IMG/VR virus record: IMGVR_UViG_3300005253_000115
Span: 1-27,401 of that record
Source of the DNA: a virus
Direction: 5' to 3' (one strand)
Length of the DNA: 27,401 bases
The notes below the pieces were generated by a model. It ran no database searches. It was given only the letters and a program-made list of their open reading frames with translations, and was not told the origin of the DNA. The position numbers and the translations under genes were made by a program. The stretch's first letter is position 1; every line of letters starts with the position of its first letter. Of the stretch, positions 1-12,545 are shown one piece after another.

Positions 1-2
1 CC

Positions 3-3000
3 ACCGGGATGTTGGTTCTTAGACGCAAAGGAAGAATATTTATATCTGGCAATTCTGGCAAAACCTCAGCTGCAGCTATGGAAATAGGTCTTTACAAACC
101 TATATTTCTGTTTAAAAAGTATGGTATTAAGGAAACACGCTGGGTAGTTGTAAGAAACTGTTTTGATGATAAAACGGAAATATTAACAGAAAAACGTGGT
201 TGGGTGCTATTTAAAGATCTAAAAAAAGATGATAAAGTTGCTTCTAATGTAAATGGGAAAACAGAATATGTTAATCCAACATATTATTATCAAGCACCTT
301 ATAATGGCGAAATGATAGGGATAAAATCACAGAATATAGATTTATTAGTTACCCCCAACCATCATTTATGGGTTTCAAAAAGAAAAACAAGAAAAAAGAT
401 ATGGAATGATTATGAACAAATAAAAGCAGAAGATATTTATGGAATAGGTGAATTAAACAGAATGAGTTCTATTGGTAAATGGGATGGCGGTAAGAAAACA
501 TTTAAAAAGGCATATTTTGAATTTTTAGGTTTCTGGTTTGCTGAAGGGTATGCCGGAATATATAAGAGAAAAAATTCGAATGGTTATCATTATAGACTTT
601 CTGTTATTCAAAATAAACGAAAAGATATGTATGTAGAGAAGTTATTAGCGAAAAATGGTTTTAAATTCTCAATTTGCAAAAAAGCAAGCACAGGGAATGC
701 ATATAATTATTCTTTTAGTATAGAGAGCAATAGCATTAAAGAATTAATATCCGAATTATCTGGATATGGCAAAGCAAAAACAAAATATTTGCCGCATTAT
801 ATTAAAAATGCACCGGCAACATATTTAAGAGCATTTTTAAAAGGATACCAGGAAGGCGATGGAAGTTTTAAAAATGGACATCCTAATAAATGCGATATTT
901 TATTTACTGCATCAAGACAACTTGCTGATGATTTACAAGAAATAATATTTAAATCTGGCAAATGTTCTGTTATAAACTTATTAAAAACAGGAAATGATAT
1001 TCGCGGTTATACTATTACCATAAGAACAAAACATAGGTCTTATCCAATAATGCTAAAACAGCATTGGTCAAAACAAGATTATAACGGGAAAGTCTATTGT
1101 ATTGAAGTACCTTCTCATGTCATTTATGTTAGAAGAAATGGAACATGTGTATGGTCTATGCAGAGCTATATCGAATTAACTGATACAACTTTGCGTACAG
1201 TCAGGGAATGGTTCCCCGGGGCAGAATATTTTGAGAAATCGAAGTATGGAAGCAAAGTAATGTTTATTGAGCACCCGAAGTATGGCATAAGAACAGAACT
1301 GTTATTCAGATCCTGCGATAATCCAGACGATGTTAAGAAGTTTAAATCATTAGAATTAACAGGTTACTGGATAGATGAGAGTATAGAAGTAGATGAAAAT
1401 ATAAAGAAGATGTTAAAAAACAGATTGGGCAGGTTTCCAAAGAAATGTCCAGTCAGGTTTGGCATTGAAACAACGAATCCCCCAGATGTAGAACACCCTA
1501 CATATTCACAATTCCAATGGAATGTTCCTCCACCCGGGCCTAAACCAAAAATAGAACCGCTGGTCGGGCATTACGGGTTTTGGCAACCACCCTATGAAAA
1601 TGCAGAAAATCTAAGACCCGGTTATTACGATGATTTGAGAAATGACTACAAAGATGACCCAGACTGGGCAGATATGTATATAGATGGAAAACCAGGTATT
1701 ATTATCAAGGGTAAGCTTATTTATAACAATTATAGGAGAGATATACACGAATCAAAAAAATCGTTAGTATGGAAGGGTGGTAGGTTAATAAGGGGATGGG
1801 ATAATTCCGGGAACATACCGGCAGCTGTTGTGTTGCAGACTCCGACAGAAGAAAATCGAACCAGTTATGATTCAGTACAGGTTTTAAGGGAATTCACTAC
1901 AGACAGAGAAAATATAGAAGATTTTGCAAAAAGGGTAGTTATGGTATGTAATAGTTTATACCCAAACGCAAAATATCTTGATTTCGGGGATCCGGCCGGT
2001 GATAATCAATACAGTAAAGGGGGAGGAGGATTTACCAGCAATTCACAAATAATGCTCGAAGGGTGTGGCGTGAATGTATATCCTTCCGAACAAAACTTAA
2101 CAATGAGGATAACTTCTGTTGAAAACTTATTGAAAAGAATAGATGGGCTTTTAATCGACCCTAGTTGCGTAAGGCTATTAAATGGATTTCTCGGAGGTTA
2201 TAATTATCCAAAGATCGGTAGCACAGAATGGTATTCTGATAAACCTGCTAAAAACAGGTTTTCACATTGTCTTGTTGGGGAAACTTTAGTATCTACTCCA
2301 TTCGGCAAAAAAAGAATTGATAAAATAAAAGTAGGGAATATTGTCAATACACATAAAGGACCGAAAATAGTAACAGCAACTATGAATAGTATATCAAATC
2401 AACTGGTAAAAATTAGTATTGATGATGGAAACTCTTTGACTTGTACCAACAATCATCCCATTGCTAAAGATTATAATTGCTTTTCTCGTGCCGATGCATT
2501 ACATTATGGTAATGGCATAATAGGAGAGAAATTCTTATGGGACGACCTGCAAAACACAGAATACAAGAATTCAACGGTATTAAGTTTTATTGGAAACCTA
2601 ATGGATATTACAAAGCAGATTGGAGAAAAGATAAAGGCATTTACATGCATGTTGCTGTTTGGCAATTCTATAAAGGAGAGATTCCAAAAGGTTATCACAT
2701 ACATCACAAAAATCATAACAAGTCAGATAATAGAATTAAAAATCTCGAATTATTATCTATATCAAAACACCAATCCTATCATGGTAAAACAAGAATATTG
2801 TTCTATCCGGATGCTGTCAGAAGACACATGGAAAAAATCAGACCATTGGCAACAGCGTGGCATCGTACAGAAGAAGGACGAATATCAAGCAAGAAAGCAG
2901 CAAAGGCAATGTGGAAAAAAGCAGAGAAGGAAGATAGGAAATGCACTGTCTGCGGTAAACAATACGAAGGTATTAGAAATTTTGGAAGGAAAAATTTCTG

Positions 3001-3347
3001 TTCTTCTTCCTGCCAGCAAAAAAATCGTAGGGATTCTGGTTTGGATAATGAAGAAAGAATATGCATATATTGTAAAAAACCTTTTCAAACTTCAAAATAC
3101 TCCAAAACAACCTCATGTTCAAAATATTGTGCCCAAAAATTCCGATTCAGTAAAAGTATATGATCTAACAGTAGAAGATTCCCATACATTCTATGCAAAT
3201 GGAATATTGGTTGGCAATTGTCACGATGCTTTACAATACGCTATTGTGCGTATATTCCAAAGTATAGATGATAATGATGATGATTGGGATGAAGACGAAT
3301 ATGATATTACGAGAGATACGGGCAGGAGTAAAGTAACCGGTTATTGA
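3..3347 (+). CDS. terL: Terminase large subunit precursor with two inteins (5' partial)
   Basis: This is the ATPase and nuclease that pumps phage DNA into the capsid through the portal. Counting from the ATG at 9, Walker A (G-N-S-G-K-T) is at residues 14-19 and Walker B (W-I-D-E) at about 454-457. RNase H-like nuclease acidic residues lie in L-D-F-G-D-P-A-G at about 657-664, and the last one is in H-C-H-D-A-L-Q-Y near the C terminus. Removing inteins of 335 and 317 residues from 1112 leaves about 460, the usual TerL size, and rebuilds R-N-S-Y-I-E-L and S-H-C-H-D-A-L. The frame is open to the left edge, the ATG at 9 has no Shine-Dalgarno sequence, and Walker A sits unusually close to it, so the true start is probably outside the window. 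The stop is followed after 14 bases by the portal ATG. The identification is very secure. Confidence 0.96.
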   Translation, partial: TGMLVLRRKGRIFISGNSGKTSAAAMEIGLYKPIFLFKKYGIKETRWVVVRNCFDDKTEILTEKRGWVLFKDLKKDDKVASNVNGKTEYVNPTYYYQAPYNGEMIGIKSQNIDLLVTPNHHLWVSKRKTRKKIWNDYEQIKAEDIYGIGELNRMSSIGKWDGGKKTFKKAYFEFLGFWFAEGYAGIYKRKNSNGYHYRLSVIQNKRKDMYVEKLLAKNGFKFSICKKASTGNAYNYSFSIESNSIKELISELSGYGKAKTKYLPHYIKNAPATYLRAFLKGYQEGDGSFKNGHPNKCDILFTASRQLADDLQEIIFKSGKCSVINLLKTGNDIRGYTITIRTKHRSYPIMLKQHWSKQDYNGKVYCIEVPSHVIYVRRNGTCVWSMQSYIELTDTTLRTVREWFPGAEYFEKSKYGSKVMFIEHPKYGIRTELLFRSCDNPDDVKKFKSLELTGYWIDESIEVDENIKKMLKNRLGRFPKKCPVRFGIETTNPPDVEHPTYSQFQWNVPPPGPKPKIEPLVGHYGFWQPPYENAENLRPGYYDDLRNDYKDDPDWADMYIDGKPGIIIKGKLIYNNYRRDIHESKKSLVWKGGRLIRGWDNSGNIPAAVVLQTPTEENRTSYDSVQVLREFTTDRENIEDFAKRVVMVCNSLYPNAKYLDFGDPAGDNQYSKGGGGFTSNSQIMLEGCGVNVYPSEQNLTMRITSVENLLKRIDGLLIDPSCVRLLNGFLGGYNYPKIGSTEWYSDKPAKNRFSHCLVGETLVSTPFGKKRIDKIKVGNIVNTHKGPKIVTATMNSISNQLVKISIDDGNSLTCTNNHPIAKDYNCFSRADALHYGNGIIGEKFLWDDLQNTEYKNSTVLSFIGNLMDITKQIGEKIKAFTCMLLFGNSIKERFQKVITYITKIITSQIIELKISNYYLYQNTNPIMVKQEYCSIRMLSEDTWKKSDHWQQRGIVQKKDEYQARKQQRQCGKKQRRKIGNALSAVNNTKVLEILEGKISVLLPASKKIVGILVWIMKKEYAYIVKNLFKLQNTPKQPHVQNIVPKNSDSVKVYDLTVEDSHTFYANGILVGNCHDALQYAIVRIFQSIDDNDDDWDEDEYDITRDTGRSKVTGY
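159..1163 (+). mobile_element. Intein 1 in TerL with LAGLIDADG endonuclease
   Basis: This is a self-splicing protein element of 335 residues (51-385 of the precursor). It starts with Cys51 in C-F-D-D-K-T-E-I-L. It has a block-B T-P-N-H motif (L-L-V-T-P-N-H-H-L) and ends in the strand V-Y-C-I-E-V-P-S-H-V-I-Y-V-R-R-N-G followed by W-S-M-Q. The +1 residue is Ser386. The middle holds the two helices of a LAGLIDADG homing endonuclease, L-G-F-W-F-A-E-G-Y and F-L-K-G-Y-Q-E-G-D-G-S. The element therefore looks complete for both splicing and homing. It interrupts a conserved terminase motif that becomes V-V-R-N-S-Y-I-E-L-T-D-T-T after splicing. The last residue is Gln rather than the usual Asn, and Met precedes it in place of the common His or Gly. 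Boundaries were chosen from the intein blocks and the rebuilt host motif. Confidence 0.93.
2522..2526 (+). promoter_or_regulatory. Internal ribosome binding site for the nested HNH gene
   Basis: AGGAG lies 10 bases upstream of the ATG at 2537, inside the intein 2 coding sequence. Its presence supports separate translation of the HNH protein from the terminase message rather than a frameshift. Confidence 0.65.
2537..3163 (+). CDS. HNH homing endonuclease nested out of frame in intein 2
   Basis: This 208-residue protein is read in a different frame from the terminase-intein and lies wholly inside it. The N-terminal half is an HNH_3-type nuclease: W-Q-F-Y-K-G-E-I-P-K-G-Y-H-I-H-H-K-N followed by N-R-I-K-N-L-E-L-L. 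That arrangement supplies the paired His and Asn of the beta-beta-alpha-metal site (about residues 54-74). The C-terminal half carries two Cys pairs of zinc-ribbon type, C-T-V-C-G-K...C-S-S-S-C and C-I-Y-C-K-K...C-S-K-Y-C, probably for DNA binding. The ATG has AGGAG upstream. The likely role is to cut intein-free terminase genes and so spread the intein. Coding in two frames over more than 600 bases is unusual. Confidence 0.9.
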   Translation: MGRPAKHRIQEFNGIKFYWKPNGYYKADWRKDKGIYMHVAVWQFYKGEIPKGYHIHHKNHNKSDNRIKNLELLSISKHQSYHGKTRILFYPDAVRRHMEKIRPLATAWHRTEEGRISSKKAAKAMWKKAEKEDRKCTVCGKQYEGIRNFGRKNFCSSSCQQKNRRDSGLDNEERICIYCKKPFQTSKYSKTTSCSKYCAQKFRFSKSI

Positions 3348-3361
3348 TAAAGGGTAAAGAA

Positions 3362-5128
3362 ATGGCTGAAAACGATAAAACAACGCTCGAAAAATATGTG
3401 AATTCACAAAATATAACGGAATTTCTCGATACAACAAAGTTAAACGAAATAAGTCAATGGGTATCGGATGAATATTCAGTTGATTTACAAAGCCGTGAAG
3501 ATTGGGAAAAAGAATATTACAAAGGAAAAAAACTTGCATTAATGGTAGAAGAAGCAAAAACATTTCCATTTGAGGGCGCTTCAAATGTTAAATTTCCTTT
3601 GATAATCCAAGCGGTGTTAAATTTTTCTGCTAGAGCATATCCTAACTTAATAAAAAACAGAGATGTTGTTAAATGTAAAGTTATCGGTGAAGACCCGGAA
3701 GGTGAGAAAAAGGCAAGGGGTATTCGTATAGCAGAACATATGAATTATCAGTTATTCGATCAGATTGATGATTGGGAAGAGAACACTGATAAAGTATTGT
3801 CATGTATAGCGTTGTATGGTGTTTATTTTAAAAAAACGTGGTTTAGTTTTGAGAAAAGAATTAATGTATCAAAAGCTATTGACCCGATAAGAGTTGTTAT
3901 TAATTATCATGCTAAAAGTTTAGAAGATGCACCAAGAATTACTCATGTTTACACACTATTGCCTAATGAAATCGAAGAACGAATAAGAAGTGGCATGTTC
4001 GTTAAATTTGATTATGAGTCGACAAAACAGGAAGTAGATGATGAAGTAAATCTTGATTATCCGAAAGATGATAGAGGGTATAAACGTGCTAATAATCCAA
4101 ACGACCTTGATAGCCCGGTTACTTTTCTTGAACAGCATAGATGGTTGGATTTAGATAATGATGGATATAAAGAACCATATGTTGTTACTATGCATCACGC
4201 AACAAAAGAAATCGTGAGAATAGTTGCGCGATTTGATATTGATGGAATAAAAGTAAATCCAGATACAAATGAGATAATGAAAATTGAACCGGTACAGTAT
4301 TTCACTAGATTTATATTTCTCCAAGCGCTTGATGGCGGTATATATGGGATGGGCTTTAGTAAACTATTATACCACATGAACGAAATAATCAATACATCTG
4401 TCAATCAAATGTTTGACGCTTCAACAGACCAAATAACTGGCGGTGGGTTTATTACGCAAGGAGTTGAAGTTGGCAAAGGACATGAAGGTGGGCGAATTTA
4501 CTTTAAGTTTGGTGAATATAAGATGGTCAAGTCGAAAGGCGATGATTTAAGAAAAAACATACTTCCGAGAGAAACAGCAAAACCTTCGCTTGTTCATATT
4601 AAATTACTCGAATTAATGCTTAAAGCTAGCGAAAAACTAGGATCTAATATTGAGTTGTTAAGCGGAAAACAAACTGGCTCAAATATTCCCGCAGCGACAA
4701 CACTTGCTTTAATCGAGCAAGGGTTACAGATGTTTACTGCAATTTATAAGAGAATATACCGAGGATTTAAGTCCGAATTTAGAAAATTATATAGATTAAA
4801 TAGACTTTATTTGGATGAAACGGAATATTACACCGTATTAGACAATGAAAGAGCAATAGCAAAAGAAGATTATGAAGACAAATCATTGGATGTTGTGCCA
4901 GTAAGTGATCCGAACAATATAACGAATGTCCAGAAAATAATGGTAGCGCAAGAACTTATGCAACTTAAGGGAACAGGTCTTAACGATAAGGAAATCACAA
5001 GAAGGTATCTTGAAGCATTAAATATACCGGATATAGATGATTTGGGTGTTGAAGAAATGAAAATACCCCAAGATCCAGAGGCAGCGTCAGATGTGTATAA
5101 GAGACAGCAATTGAAGAAGCCAAGTTAA
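3362..5128 (+). CDS. Portal protein, N-terminal part (C terminus cut by adapter artefact)
   Basis: This is the dodecameric channel at the capsid vertex through which DNA enters and leaves. The body shows features of P22-like portals: F-E-G-A-S-N-V-K-F-P-L-I, R-A-Y-P-N-L, the W-L-D-L-D-N-D-G-Y-K-E-P-Y-V-V loop, and G-K-Q-T-G-S-N-I-P-A-A-T-T near the crown. The ATG at 3362 was preferred to an in-frame TTG at 3344 because AGGG lies just upstream. The final residues, S-D-V-Y-K-R-Q onward, are translated from a sequencing adapter, so the real coding part ends near 5080. Rejoined to the downstream segment it would be about 693 residues, close to the 725 of P22 gp1. Confidence 0.9.
   Translation: MAENDKTTLEKYVNSQNITEFLDTTKLNEISQWVSDEYSVDLQSREDWEKEYYKGKKLALMVEEAKTFPFEGASNVKFPLIIQAVLNFSARAYPNLIKNRDVVKCKVIGEDPEGEKKARGIRIAEHMNYQLFDQIDDWEENTDKVLSCIALYGVYFKKTWFSFEKRINVSKAIDPIRVVINYHAKSLEDAPRITHVYTLLPNEIEERIRSGMFVKFDYESTKQEVDDEVNLDYPKDDRGYKRANNPNDLDSPVTFLEQHRWLDLDNDGYKEPYVVTMHHATKEIVRIVARFDIDGIKVNPDTNEIMKIEPVQYFTRFIFLQALDGGIYGMGFSKLLYHMNEIINTSVNQMFDASTDQITGGGFITQGVEVGKGHEGGRIYFKFGEYKMVKSKGDDLRKNILPRETAKPSLVHIKLLELMLKASEKLGSNIELLSGKQTGSNIPAATTLALIEQGLQMFTAIYKRIYRGFKSEFRKLYRLNRLYLDETEYYTVLDNERAIAKEDYEDKSLDVVPVSDPNNITNVQKIMVAQELMQLKGTGLNDKEITRRYLEALNIPDIDDLGVEEMKIPQDPEAASDVYKRQQLKKPS
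5080..5107. other. Embedded Nextera/Tn5 adapter sequence (assembly artefact)
   Basis: All 28 bases match the 3' part of the Nextera read 1 adapter, and 5089-5107 is the 19-base Tn5 mosaic end AGATGTGTATAAGAGACAG. Translated, it gives the peptide S-D-V-Y-K-R-Q. It breaks the portal reading frame. Deleting 26 bases (for example 5082-5107) restores one frame, reading P-E-A-I-E-E-A-K across the join. It is not biological DNA. Confidence 0.96.
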
Positions 5129-5469
5129 ACCTTGAAAAAAGAAAGTTGGATATTAACGAGAAAAAACTAAAAATAGATGAACTTCAAACTAAATTTGAGA
5201 TATTAAAAACAAAAGCAGAAACAACAAAAACTAAAGCCGAGGCACTTAAAGCGGTAGCGGAAGCAGAAGCAGAAGAAGCAGGTCCGCAAATGGAAGAATA
5301 TAAAAAAACAATTGCAGAACTAGAAGGGCAAAGAAACGAAATGAATGACCTTCTAAACGAACAGACAGATTTGATAGAAGGCGGAATAAATGAAAAACGT
5401 AGACTCGGGGCATCAAAAGAATTGGCTGGCCCACCCGGTAACGCAGGAATTCCTACTGCAAGCAAATAA
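5107..5469 (+). CDS. Portal protein, C-terminal coiled-coil segment
   Basis: These 120 codons (A-I-E-E-A-K-L-N-L-E-K-R onward) lack any start codon with a ribosome binding site; the first candidate is a bare TTG at 5146. They begin exactly where the adapter ends. The sequence is rich in Lys, Glu and Ala, as expected for a long helix or coiled coil like the C-terminal barrel of P22-type portals, and it ends in a flexible Gly/Pro tail. It is best read as the missing end of the portal gene rather than as a separate gene. Confidence 0.85.
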   Translation, partial: AIEEAKLNLEKRKLDINEKKLKIDELQTKFEILKTKAETTKTKAEALKAVAEAEAEEAGPQMEEYKKTIAELEGQRNEMNDLLNEQTDLIEGGINEKRRLGASKELAGPPGNAGIPTASK

Positions 5470-5635
5470 ATTAATGCAGGATATTAGAAATGAGATAGGA
5501 GAAGGCGTTTGTTTGGATAGAAGTAGCGTTGACAATACAGCTATTAACTATACTTCTGATGTTTCAAGAGCTGAAGGAATAGAAGAATTGATAAAATACG
5601 CAACAAATATTAAAGAAGAAACAGAAGAAAAATAA
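5390..5635 (+). CDS. Small phage protein following the portal
   Basis: This 81-residue soluble protein is unrecognised by name. Its N-terminal pattern W-L-A-H-P-V-T-Q-E-F-L, followed by an amphipathic helix and a C-terminal segment E-G-I-E-E-L-I-K-Y, resembles small proteins often coded directly after phage portals. The ATG at 5390 overlaps the end of the portal by 80 bases in another frame, and AAGGCGG upstream is a reasonable ribosome binding site. Its role is unknown; the position suggests an assembly helper or small virion component. Confidence 0.7.
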   Translation: MKNVDSGHQKNWLAHPVTQEFLLQANKLMQDIRNEIGEGVCLDRSSVDNTAINYTSDVSRAEGIEELIKYATNIKEETEEK

Positions 5636-5641
5636 AAAACA

Positions 5642-5809
5642 ATGGACAAAAACAAAAAAATTGATATATTACATATTGAAACTGAAATAAAGAGATATAT
5701 TAATGAGTGGAAGTTGACAAAAAAAACAGGCTCATTATCGTTTGATATTAATTTTTTATTAGGGGGCATTAGAGATGTCAACGTGAAGTATAATGTAAAA
5801 ATTAAATAA
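5642..5809 (+). CDS. Small hypothetical protein (55 aa)
   Basis: This short reading frame starts six bases after the previous stop and fills the space before the terminator. It encodes a Lys- and Ile-rich peptide with G-S-L-S-F-D-I-N-F-L-L-G-G in the middle. The ribosome binding site is weak (GAAGAAAA). No family was recognised. The tight spacing and full use of the gap favour a real gene, but this is uncertain. Confidence 0.5.
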   Translation: MDKNKKIDILHIETEIKRYINEWKLTKKTGSLSFDINFLLGGIRDVNVKYNVKIK

Positions 5810-5858
5810 ACGATACCTAGGGATACTTTTCACAGAAAAAGAAAAATTGATTCTAAAG

Positions 5859-5899
5859 CTCGTATTTTGCAAATAGTTTGCATTAATACGAGTTTTTTT
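5859..5899 (+). terminator. Intrinsic terminator between the portal block and the head genes
   Basis: The stem CTCGTATT/AATACGAG (5859-5866 with 5885-5892) continues through a second stem TGCAAA/TTTGCA (5868-5873 with 5877-5882) with a three-base loop, and is followed by seven T (5893-5899). It lies just upstream of the co-chaperonin ribosome binding site, so it probably lowers rather than stops transcription of the capsid genes. Confidence 0.8.
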
Positions 5900-5920
5900 A
5901 TTAAACAGAAGGAGATAGGA

Positions 5921-6181
5921 ATGGTAAGGCTAGAGCTTTTAGGATGGAGAATACTTATAGAGCCTGATAAGACACAGGATATGGAACAGATGGCAGTAGT
6001 CAAAGGAAAAGTGGTTTCGATTGGCCCGACAGCATTTGGAAAAGAAAGAGACAAATCAACACTAAAAGAAGGAGATACAGTTCATTTCGCAAAGTATTCT
6101 GGGTCTATTGTCAAATTGAACAATATAGAATACAGAATAGTCAATGACGAAGATTTGCTGGGAATAGAAAGAGAGGAATAA
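5921..6181 (+). CDS. GroES-like co-chaperonin
   Basis: This 86-residue protein has the Cpn10 layout: R-I-L-I-E-P-D-K near the N terminus, then V-V-K-G-K-V-V-S-I-G-P, then K-E-G-D-T-V-H-F-A-K-Y-S-G, and N-I-E-Y-R-I-V-N-D-E-D-L-L-G-I at the end. These correspond to the beta-barrel strands of GroES. The mobile loop that contacts GroEL would be around residues 16-25 (T-Q-D-M-E-Q-M-A), which is shorter and less hydrophobic than in E. coli GroES. The ATG at 5921 was chosen because AAGGAG precedes it; an in-frame ATG at 5867 lies inside the terminator hairpin. Its place before the scaffold and capsid genes suggests a capsid-folding role, as T4 gp31 has. Confidence 0.85.
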   Translation: MVRLELLGWRILIEPDKTQDMEQMAVVKGKVVSIGPTAFGKERDKSTLKEGDTVHFAKYSGSIVKLNNIEYRIVNDEDLLGIEREE

Positions 6182-6182
6182 G

Positions 6183-7118
6183 ATGGGAGATGAAGAGAAA
6201 ACCAGTACCGGTGGGAATAGCATCGAAATGGGTTCAGATTATAATATACCGAGTTCCGATGAGAACGCAACTGGAGAAGTAGAGAACAAAACACCTGAAA
6301 AACAAAGTATAGAAACAATAACGCCAGAGGCAAGAGCGGAGATCGAAACTGCACATACACTAAAAATTGCAAAAACAATGGGGTATAAAACAAAGGAAGA
6401 ACTTGGCACTGATGCAGAAAGCAGGGAATTTCTTGACCCACTTAAATATATAACAAATGCTCAGGAGGTAACGAGAACAAAAGGCGATACAATTATAAAA
6501 CTTGGGACAAAAATAGATAATCTCGAAAATTTAATAACGGAACAAAATAAACATCAGGGCGCAATAGTAAAAGCGCGTGTAGACAGAAGACTTGCTGAAT
6601 TAAAAGAAGACAAGGACAAAGCCATTACAGAAGGTGATACCGCTGGTGTTGCCGCAGTTGAAAAGGAAATGGAGGATATAAGCAAAGAAGTGCTTCCCGA
6701 GAATAAGGAAGAAGAAAAGACAGAAAACAAAGAACAGGAAGCGGCTGAAAATAAAATAATGGCCAATTGGCAAAAAGATAATTCATGGTTTGGGGAAGAT
6801 ACTGAATTAACATCAATGGCTAAAAGCATAGCGCAAGAATTTGCTGATTCTGTGCCACTTGAAAATATACTGGATGTTATAGATGCAAAATTGAATAGGT
6901 TTGTAAGCACTGCCAAAACGACACAAAAAGAATTAGAAACAAAAACAGCTAGATCTTCGTTGGTTGATGATGGGGATTTTTCAGGCAAAAAAACATCTAC
7001 ATTTAATGATTTAACATATGACCAAAAAAAGGTGTATGAAAGTTTTGAAAAAGCTGATCCTCATTTTAATGGAGAAAATTGGATAAAAGAATTAGACGAG
7101 ATTGGAGAATTAGGATAA
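6183..7118 (+). CDS. Probable capsid scaffolding protein
   Basis: This 311-residue, very acidic and highly charged protein has a disordered N terminus and long predicted helices (E-A-R-A-E-I-E-T-A-H-T; the D-R-R-L-A-E-L-K-E-D-K-D-K-A region). A more ordered patch, N-S-W-F-G-E-D-T-E-L-T-S-M-A-K, lies near residue 200. Composition and position between portal and major capsid match scaffolds that line the procapsid and leave before packaging. It starts one base after the co-chaperonin stop. No motif proves the function; the call rests on gene order and composition. Confidence 0.7.
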   Translation: MGDEEKTSTGGNSIEMGSDYNIPSSDENATGEVENKTPEKQSIETITPEARAEIETAHTLKIAKTMGYKTKEELGTDAESREFLDPLKYITNAQEVTRTKGDTIIKLGTKIDNLENLITEQNKHQGAIVKARVDRRLAELKEDKDKAITEGDTAGVAAVEKEMEDISKEVLPENKEEEKTENKEQEAAENKIMANWQKDNSWFGEDTELTSMAKSIAQEFADSVPLENILDVIDAKLNRFVSTAKTTQKELETKTARSSLVDDGDFSGKKTSTFNDLTYDQKKVYESFEKADPHFNGENWIKELDEIGELG

Positions 7119-7720
7119 TGAAAAATAATAAAAATGAATTTGATATAATGGCTGATGATATTTCAGGAAAAACAGAAGAAAATACCAAAGAACAAAAAAC
7201 AAAAAAACTTACTAAACAAAAACCAGAACAAAAAGAAGAAACAAAACCAGAGAAAACAGCGATAAATCCAGAAAAAGAGGAATTGTTGGATGGTAGATAC
7301 AGAACCGATAGTCCAACAAGAAAAGGTAGAAAAGCAATAGGGGGCAGAAATCCCCTACAATTTGAAAAAAGACCGGGCTTTCACCGCAGAGTGTTTAATG
7401 ACACAGAAGACAGAATAGCCCAAGCCGAAGAAAGTGGATACAGAATTGTAACAGAGAAAACTAAAGGTGGCGATGATAGAGCTGGTGCAGATTCACAGCA
7501 AGCGACACCTGTTGTACGGTCTGTTGGCGCTGGAATGAAAGGCGTATTAATGGAAGAACCGGAAGAGTTCTATAACGAAGACCAGAGAAAAAAGCAGGAA
7601 CAAGTTGATATTGGTGAAGCAGATATACTTAGAACAGGAACTACTCCCGGCCTTATGCAGAAAGGCCAACAGGTTATGGGTGATGGGGCATATGGTGATG
7701 GGTTAAAAATTAAACGATAA
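7118..7720 (+). CDS. Hypothetical head-region protein
   Basis: This 200-residue protein overlaps the previous stop by one base (TAATG). The first 60 residues are Lys/Glu/Gln-rich and look disordered. A conserved-looking core, R-P-G-F-H-R-R-V-F-N-D-T-E-D-R-I-A-Q-A-E-E-S-G-Y, follows at about residues 84-107. The Gly-rich tail ends in K-I-K-R. Similar R-P-G-x-H-R-R cores occur in uncharacterised proteins next to capsid genes of other podoviruses. It may be a minor virion protein; no activity can be assigned. Confidence 0.75.
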   Translation: MKNNKNEFDIMADDISGKTEENTKEQKTKKLTKQKPEQKEETKPEKTAINPEKEELLDGRYRTDSPTRKGRKAIGGRNPLQFEKRPGFHRRVFNDTEDRIAQAEESGYRIVTEKTKGGDDRAGADSQQATPVVRSVGAGMKGVLMEEPEEFYNEDQRKKQEQVDIGEADILRTGTTPGLMQKGQQVMGDGAYGDGLKIKR

Positions 7721-7746
7721 TTTATAAATGGCAATAAGGAGTAAAA

Positions 7747-8319
7747 ATGGCTAATAATGATGCTCCTCATGGGTTTACACCCATTAAGCATTTAAGTGGA
7801 GCGCCTTATAGTGGGCAGGCAAATAAATACAATATTGCTTCTGATTATAGCACTGCATTGTATATAGGCGATATTGTTAAACTTGCCGGTTCTGCCGATA
7901 CCAGAGGTGTGCCAACAATCGAAAGAGCAGCTGCAACCGATTTACCAGTAGGTGTTATTACAGCCTTTGAACCGAAACCGGAATCTGGACTTGACCAGAA
8001 GTATAGTCCAGCTGATGAAGTCGGTTATGCTTGGGTTTGCGATGACCCTAATGTAATCATGCGCGCTCAGGAGGATGGTACACTTACCGCAGGTGATATA
8101 GGTTTGAACACCAAACCTACGACAACTGCTGGTAGTATCGTAACCGGTATATCTGGCGAAGAACTTGATTATTCCGAAGCCGGTTCAACGAATACCTTGA
8201 TGTTTAAAATTCTTCGGCTTTATGATGCCGAGGATAATGAAATTGGCGCCGATTCTGAGTGTGAATGTAAGTTCAATGTTCATGCTTATTCAACAGAAAC
8301 TGGCACAACCGCGACCTAA
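7747..8319 (+). CDS. Putative capsid decoration or stabilising protein
   Basis: This 190-residue protein is rich in small, Thr and acidic residues and looks all-beta. The N terminus, M-A-N-N-D-A-P-H-G-F-T-P-I-K-H-L-S-G, and the Y-I-G-D-I-V-K-L-A-G strand are typical of small head proteins coded directly upstream of the capsid gene. D-L-P-V-G-V-I-T-A-F and V-I-M-R-A-Q suggest a barrel. The start has AAGGAG upstream. The role as an outer-surface decoration protein is inferred from position and fold-like pattern. Confidence 0.72.
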   Translation: MANNDAPHGFTPIKHLSGAPYSGQANKYNIASDYSTALYIGDIVKLAGSADTRGVPTIERAAATDLPVGVITAFEPKPESGLDQKYSPADEVGYAWVCDDPNVIMRAQEDGTLTAGDIGLNTKPTTTAGSIVTGISGEELDYSEAGSTNTLMFKILRLYDAEDNEIGADSECECKFNVHAYSTETGTTAT

Positions 8320-11795: not shown

Positions 11796-12545
11796 ATGAA
11801 AGAAGATACAAAAATCTGTAAAAAATGTAAGATTGAAAAACCATTAAGTGAGTTTTATTTTAGAAAAGATAATAATGGTTATAGAAATGAATGTAAAATA
11901 TGTTTTATAAAAATTAGAAAAGAATATAGAGAAAAATACCTTTATAAATCAAAAGAAATAGCACATAAAAGTTATTTAAAAAGATATAAAGAAAATCCTG
12001 AAAAAATAAAAGCAGAAAGATATAATAACCTTAAAAATTGGAGAGAGAATAACCTAGAGAAAGTTCTTGCTCAAGGTAAAAAATGGAGGGAGGAAAATCC
12101 CGAAAAGTCTCGCATTAAATGCCAAAAATGTAGGGAAAAAAATCCTAAAAATTTTAAAATAAGTGCACATAAAAGTTATTTAAAAAATAGATTAAGTTCA
12201 CAATACAGGTTAAATTGTTCAATAGCGCAAGGATTACGACATTCATTAAATAAAAATAGTGGAAGTAAAAACGATAGACACTGGGAAGGTTTGGTTGGCT
12301 TTACAATTAAAGAGTTAAAGAAACACCTTGAAAAACAATTTGCCGAGGGTATGAGTTGGAAGAATTATGGTGATTGGGAAATTGACCATATCATCCCTTT
12401 ATCAGCACATAATTTTAGCGATGTAAACCACATAGATTTTAAGCGAGCTTGGAGTTTAGATAATTTACAACCAATGTGGAAAATAGAAAATTTGCAAAAA
12501 AGTAATAAACTCGAACAATCATTCCAGCCAAGTTTGGCAATATAA
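11796..12545 (+). CDS. Free-standing HNH homing endonuclease
   Basis: This 249-residue protein has an N-terminal zinc knuckle (Cys8, Cys11, Cys33, Cys36), a long Lys/Glu-rich spacer with repeated E-N-P-E-K patterns, and a C-terminal HNH domain. That domain reads W-E-I-D-H-I-I-P-L-S, then N-H-I-D-F-K-R-A-W-S-L-D-N-L-Q-P-M-W, then E-N-L-Q-K-S-N-K-L. It starts one base after the glycosyltransferase stop with little ribosome binding site and is more AT-rich than its neighbours, as expected for a mobile gene dropped between essential genes. Its last codons resemble two remnants elsewhere in the window. Confidence 0.9.
   Translation: MKEDTKICKKCKIEKPLSEFYFRKDNNGYRNECKICFIKIRKEYREKYLYKSKEIAHKSYLKRYKENPEKIKAERYNNLKNWRENNLEKVLAQGKKWREENPEKSRIKCQKCREKNPKNFKISAHKSYLKNRLSSQYRLNCSIAQGLRHSLNKNSGSKNDRHWEGLVGFTIKELKKHLEKQFAEGMSWKNYGDWEIDHIIPLSAHNFSDVNHIDFKRAWSLDNLQPMWKIENLQKSNKLEQSFQPSLAI

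Follow-up and report, generated by a model that had tools for sequence, protein, structure and literature searches.

In the 27,401-nucleotide viral sequence IMGVR_UViG_3300005253_000115 (IMG/VR, positions 1 to 27,401; hereafter the window), the terminase large subunit gene, terL, contains an intein whose splicing halves are read in the terL frame, and a complete HNH endonuclease gene lies inside that intein in another frame. Inteins usually carry their endonuclease fused in frame. The element described here, intein 2, is very probably a mobile phage intein in which the homing endonuclease comes from an overprinted gene and not from an in-frame domain. Its features are the following.

3..3347, plus strand: open reading frame (ORF) of terL, the host gene, recognised by its phrog_2 match and by homologues; the 5' end is lost at the contig edge.
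2268..3218, plus strand: intein 2 in the terL frame, 317 residues from Cys1 to Asn, with flanks ...KNRFSH / CHDALQY...
2268..2546, plus strand: N-terminal splicing half (HINT) with Cys1 and TxxH; predicted local distance difference test (pLDDT) above 90 over most of it in the AlphaFold2 (AF2) model.
2522..2526, plus strand: AGGAG, putative Shine-Dalgarno sequence of the HNH gene, 10 nt upstream of the ATG at 2537.
2537..3163, plus strand: HNH endonuclease gene, 208 aa, ATG start, terL frame -1, recognised by Pfam and PHROG searches, AF2 and purifying selection.
2642..2773, plus strand: HNH_3 domain, HNH residues 36-79 (Pfam PF13392, E=1.1e-16).
2942..3013, plus strand: first zinc ribbon (C136, C139, C155, C159), its cysteines unchanged in 33 relatives.
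3062..3130, plus strand: second zinc ribbon (C176, C179, C194, C198), its cysteines likewise unchanged in 33 relatives.
3102..3218, plus strand: C-terminal splicing half, VYDLTVEDSHTFYANGILVGN, directly before Cys+1 (TIGR01443, 38.8 bits) and identical in contig L121.
3219..3221, plus strand: Cys+1 of the C-extein; Ile stands at the same place in L281, a relative with an empty site.

A sequence-only reading of the window had already proposed the coordinates 2268-3218, the 208-residue HNH protein with zinc ribbons, its AGGAG and its separate frame, all of which were exact on re-check. Cys1 is encoded at 2268-2270, the last Asn at 3216-3218 and Cys+1 at 3219-3221; in the translation of 2265-3221 the block B TxxH is T61/H64 and the terminal Asn is N318. 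Read in the host frame, the splicing residues Cys1, TxxH, Asn and Cys+1 are unchanged in 38 relatives. The splicing regions are detected by Pfam and also by NCBIfam, where TIGR01443 (C-terminal splicing region) is over its cut-off and TIGR01445 (N-terminal) reaches 23.0 against a cut-off of 24.5. Structure predictions, made for loci other than L003 and L005, gave confident HINT halves for the terL-frame intein (residues 1-93 and 280-319) on either side of a low-confidence linker, and Foldseek matched this model to the gp41-1 intein (6qaz, E=3e-7) and to other inteins. Positions 2268-3218 are an intact mini-intein in the terL frame, which would leave the terminase by protein splicing. PHROG models 30251 and 35162 align to its linker; gene callers that report one frame overlook overprinted endonucleases, and a long linker of this kind can be mistaken for unknown or terminase sequence.

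In the overprinted protein the catalytic His and Asn columns of HNH_3, together with all eight cysteines, are unchanged in 33 relatives. Its AF2 model has a pLDDT of 94.5, and the top solved structure found by Foldseek is the homing endonuclease I-HmuI, a weak match (E=0.064). Across relatives the HNH start lies a median of 90 codons past Cys1 and its stop a median of 14 codons ahead of the final Asn. HNH-like ORFs of related appearance stand free at 11796-12545 of the window, after a glycosyltransferase-like gene, and at 4547-5296 of L121, just after terL.

That the terL frame has no stop over the 209 codons of the HNH gene was confirmed (the ORF is open from 3 to 3347), but the probability first attached to this, roughly 4 in 100,000, was about 100-fold too strong for a single locus; it corresponds to (61/64)^209 = 4.4e-5, which is the wrong null because, for a given protein, the -1 frame is not a random sequence. 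When the HNH protein and its codon set were held fixed, synonymous codons shuffled and terL-frame stops counted, the window locus was expected to contain 3.3 stops, with P(0)=0.005, so that the open frame at this locus alone is only suggestive. The same shuffle across 63 homologous loci gave 137.5 expected stops against 0 observed, which makes stop avoidance decisive in a way that one locus could not; the third frame of these loci contained 1261 stops against 1278 expected. The stop counts themselves cover all loci, including free-standing and split HNH relatives, and in the free-standing or broken-gene relatives among the loci listed the stops of that frame are near expectation.

There is next to no chance that the second open frame is an accident or an assembly error and that only one frame is real. 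A single-locus probability of 0.005 is not negligible for a large scan, and the window does contain a sequencing adapter at 5089-5107; yet the independent contig L121, with 78% nucleotide identity over most of terL, also carries the element, and both of its frames are intact despite 133 differences from the window, along which 6.3 nonsense substitutions would be expected. In addition, the 100 nonredundant relatives described below share one relative frame, as do isolate genomes. The sequence-only reading had named two findings as damaging to it, a stop or frameshift in the insert's terL frame in an independent assembly and an HNH carried in frame by homologues: L121 keeps the frame open, and no in-frame HNH_3 occurs in any locus examined. 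Given L121 and the isolate genomes of the same design, assembly error is excluded for the insert region, and for the class as a whole chance and assembly error are already refuted. The adapter is an exact Nextera mosaic-end sequence inside the portal gene, downstream of intein 2; the portal ORF stops right after it while the L121 homologue runs on, indicating an assembly or adapter artefact at that place.

For 12 independent pairs, substitutions were then classed according to what they change in each of the two frames, the comparison of synonymous and non-synonymous change that had been proposed as a check. The HNH gave dNN/dSN = 0.41 (0.37-0.45) and the terL-frame linker dNN/dNS = 1.02 (0.89-1.15); for the window and L121 alone the values were 0.35 (0.24-0.51) for the HNH and 0.75 (0.52-1.19) for the terL frame. 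Along the 12 pairs 61 terL-frame nonsense substitutions were expected and none is present. This combination of purifying selection and zero nonsense indicates that the HNH is a real protein and that the linker is chiefly kept open. Both frames are therefore selected, as had been claimed, but unequally: the residues of the HNH are constrained, the linker only for its openness. Strong selection on linker residues in the terL frame, considered as a candidate, is unsupported by the value of 1.02.

The distribution of such elements was surveyed by HNH scans of IMG/VR and GTDB genomes, followed by frame analysis and hidden Markov models of intein blocks. Of the loci recovered, 66 are unbroken inteins overprinted by an HNH, about 26 are split and 13 hold an HNH but lack intein blocks; in a single further unbroken intein, L078, the HNH occupies the other frame, and three more partial loci may be split. 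HNH_3 elements total 110 (100 nonredundant at 90%), and in every one, the window included, the endonuclease is in terL frame -1 and not in the frame of the splicing halves, although the collection rule itself required the -1 frame; cases in the opposite frame are few (L078, L111, L151 and L199). An in-frame HNH fusion was found in none of the loci examined. The hosts of HNH_3 elements are nearly all terminase large subunits, and the isolates Acinetobacter phage Highwayman, Tetrasphaera phage TJE1 and a Rhodobacteraceae phage have the same design. A scan for mini-inteins only, blind to the HNH, found an out-of-frame endonuclease (HNH_3, HNH_2 or DUF559) in about 62 of about 82 inteins and an in-frame one in 1, counts that are approximate since the loci are not independent and were picked because they resemble the window intein. 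When close relatives of the HNH were sought with a single protein as query, the one match was irrelevant.

Among the opposite-frame cases, the inteins at L151:2555-3545 and L199:3501-4536 are overprinted in the +1 frame by a different, HNH_2-type enzyme, and at L111:1531-3210, in a gene not recognised as a terminase, an apparent intein contains an HNH_3 that is out of frame and uses the opposite frame from the terL elements. In a Methanimicrococcus contig (L094:2896-4272) each of two overlapping frames contains one TAG, which may reflect either decay or decoding of TAG as an amino acid; Methanimicrococcus belongs to a pyrrolysine-using lineage.

Many inteins without an HNH carry instead a DUF559/MTES_1575 (Vsr-like) endonuclease in the other frame. 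A dedicated scan, built on a narrower alignment because the broad one was too diverse, found 84 unbroken inteins with an overprinted DUF559 (55 nonredundant), in which intein-frame stops number 0 against 638 expected; L182 is the sole in-frame case. Their hosts are P-loop ATPases and helicases. Selection on the endonuclease was 0.39 (0.36-0.43) and on the intein frame 0.69 (0.63-0.75), where the stretch compared may include conserved intein sequence. As this family is unrelated to the HNH and sits in the other frame, overprinting arose at least twice. Judged by the sequences of 100 nonredundant HNH elements and of this second family, the double-coded design is widespread in phages and not a one-off.

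How would such an element operate? The whole insert would be translated in the terL frame, and its N and C halves would form a HINT domain that excises the insert and joins ...RFSH to CHDAL..., with the 180-190 residues between the halves serving as an unstructured, tolerated linker. Translation starting separately on the shared mRNA, at AGGAG and ATG 2537, would yield a free HNH/zinc-ribbon endonuclease from the -1 frame, which would cut terL alleles that lack the intein, the insert then being copied into them during repair. Selection acts on the HNH protein and, in the terL frame of the linker, mainly against stops. Were openness lost while both halves were still made separately, the outcome would be a terL fractured at a split intein, with the HNH gene standing free. 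The patchy presence of the element is consistent with mobility: it is found in the window and in L121 and is missing from L281-L287. In the TerL protein of L281, 79% identical, the sequence ...KNRFSHIHDALQY... is an exact empty site, Ile standing at the position that Cys takes in the occupied allele, and L282-L287 are also empty at the intein 2 site. Two further loci, L134 and L152, are mini-inteins that retain, out of frame, a zinc-ribbon remnant of the HNH, the decay expected once the homing enzyme is no longer needed, and so fit what a homing cycle predicts.

The proposal of a mini-intein plus an overprinted, separately translated endonuclease is thus supported by both frames, by conservation and by selection, with translation of the HNH predicted. 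Several points count against it. The penultimate residue of intein 2 is Gly and not the customary His (Gly also in L121; Ser is frequent in relatives), 10 of 100 elements have no ATG near the HNH N terminus, and a clear Shine-Dalgarno sequence is present at just 35 of 90 HNH starts; splicing, HNH translation, cutting and homing I infer from sequence. It is quite improbable that programmed -1 frameshifting yields the HNH as a fusion to the N-intein and that the HNH is not made from its own start. Its invariable -1 frame could be reached by such a shift, but in-phase slippery heptamers near the junction are rare (10 of 110 elements, and on visual inspection none in the window), the other frame is occupied by the DUF559 family and by a few of the HNHs, and a start codon lies just before the conserved HNH N terminus in 90 of 100 elements. 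At those 90 ATGs the Shine-Dalgarno core is enriched, 35/90 against 28/358 at control ATGs of the same frame in the exteins (P=8e-12). Separate initiation is the more probable reading.

Improbable, too, is the idea that the HNH is a packaging cofactor of the terminase and not a homing enzyme. HNH proteins that work with terminase are known, their genes often lying next to terL and their products assisting packaging; a brucellaphage paper (PMC4422536) raised a packaging role, and HNH_3 elements are almost confined to terL. Set against this, the close relatives L281-L287 have no HNH at the intein 2 site, the HNH is accompanied by intein halves in both the overprinted and the split classes, and the unrelated DUF559 enzyme occupies the same place within helicase and AAA ATPase genes. 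That the insert is removed as RNA, a group I or II intron to which the terL frame is irrelevant, can hardly be true: phage introns often hold out-of-frame HNH genes, but an Rfam search of window positions 1-8000 returned no match, catalytic RNAs of group I and II introns included, and the terL frame has the invariant intein residues, the HINT fold and stop avoidance.

In the split loci (about 26, for example L017, L040 and L108) the N-exon with N-intein, the HNH, and the C-intein with C-exon are separate ORFs, the host frame being broken between the intein halves, as it is not in the window. In most of them the C half has a candidate start codon of its own, accompanied in some by a Shine-Dalgarno sequence. 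On the HNH tree the unbroken and split states are interspersed, requiring at least 11 changes by parsimony, of which well supported branches force at least 4 to 5 label changes; the tree was built quickly, many of its branches are weak, and counting by parsimony gives no direction. Change from unbroken to split is the likelier, since the reverse would require several stops to be lost. The sequence-only reading linked the window element, as a possible intermediate, to fractured genes; the interspersed split relatives support this link, whereas its direction follows from the inference just given.

Dassa et al. in 2009 reportedly described fractured genes with split inteins and free-standing endonucleases of a Vsr-like family. 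Their layout matches that of the split relatives, whereas the element in the window, unbroken and coding in two frames, is a candidate for the precursor state, and its HNH_3/zinc-ribbon family differs from the Vsr-like one. With in-frame homing inteins (PI-SceI, LAGLIDADG type) the element shares HINT, Cys1/TxxH/Asn/Cys+1, an endonuclease coded between the halves and a position within a conserved motif of an essential enzyme, but its endonuclease is a separate protein in another frame and not a fused domain. A brucellaphage TerL with an out-of-frame HNH was noted in one sentence in 2015 (PMC4422536); it concerns one phage group, and the passages on it contain no analysis of the splicing domain, frame conservation, selection or generality. 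The ShiLan domain, reported in 2025, is a hidden out-of-frame HNH in a mycobacteriophage methylase whose host frame is open; it has no intein domains, is apparently not removed and has no ribosome-binding site that could be found (PMC11855218), whereas the window has intein blocks in the host frame and a putative Shine-Dalgarno sequence. An insertion resembling that of ShiLan lies at L113:2320-4092 in a Rhodobacteraceae genome, where an N6_N4 methylase gene contains an HNH out of frame and lacks intein blocks. No systematic account of inteins with overprinted endonucleases was found in open PMC full texts, a set outside which subscription papers and most preprints fall.

I lean towards the view that overprinting is a general mode of endonuclease carriage in phage inteins, in which at least two unrelated families entered mini-inteins in opposite frames, and that it is the missing precursor from which fractured split-intein genes arose repeatedly. 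In this large class of phage inteins the splicing protein and the endonuclease are two genes on one stretch of DNA, each able to evolve with little effect on the other protein. This gives a concrete route from mini-intein to split intein, whereby a free HNH gene enters out of frame, the host frame has to stay open and later breaks at a time when the two halves continue to be produced, and it makes the origin of split inteins testable through closely related alleles.

Two other inteins were seen in the terL of the window. Positions 3-53 are the tail of a third intein, which sits at the Walker A motif (...GRIFISGN|SGKTS), as in L281, and the contig begins within it. Intein 1 (159-1163) has an in-frame LAGLIDADG-like stretch, and its final residue is Gln in place of Asn, followed by Ser+1.

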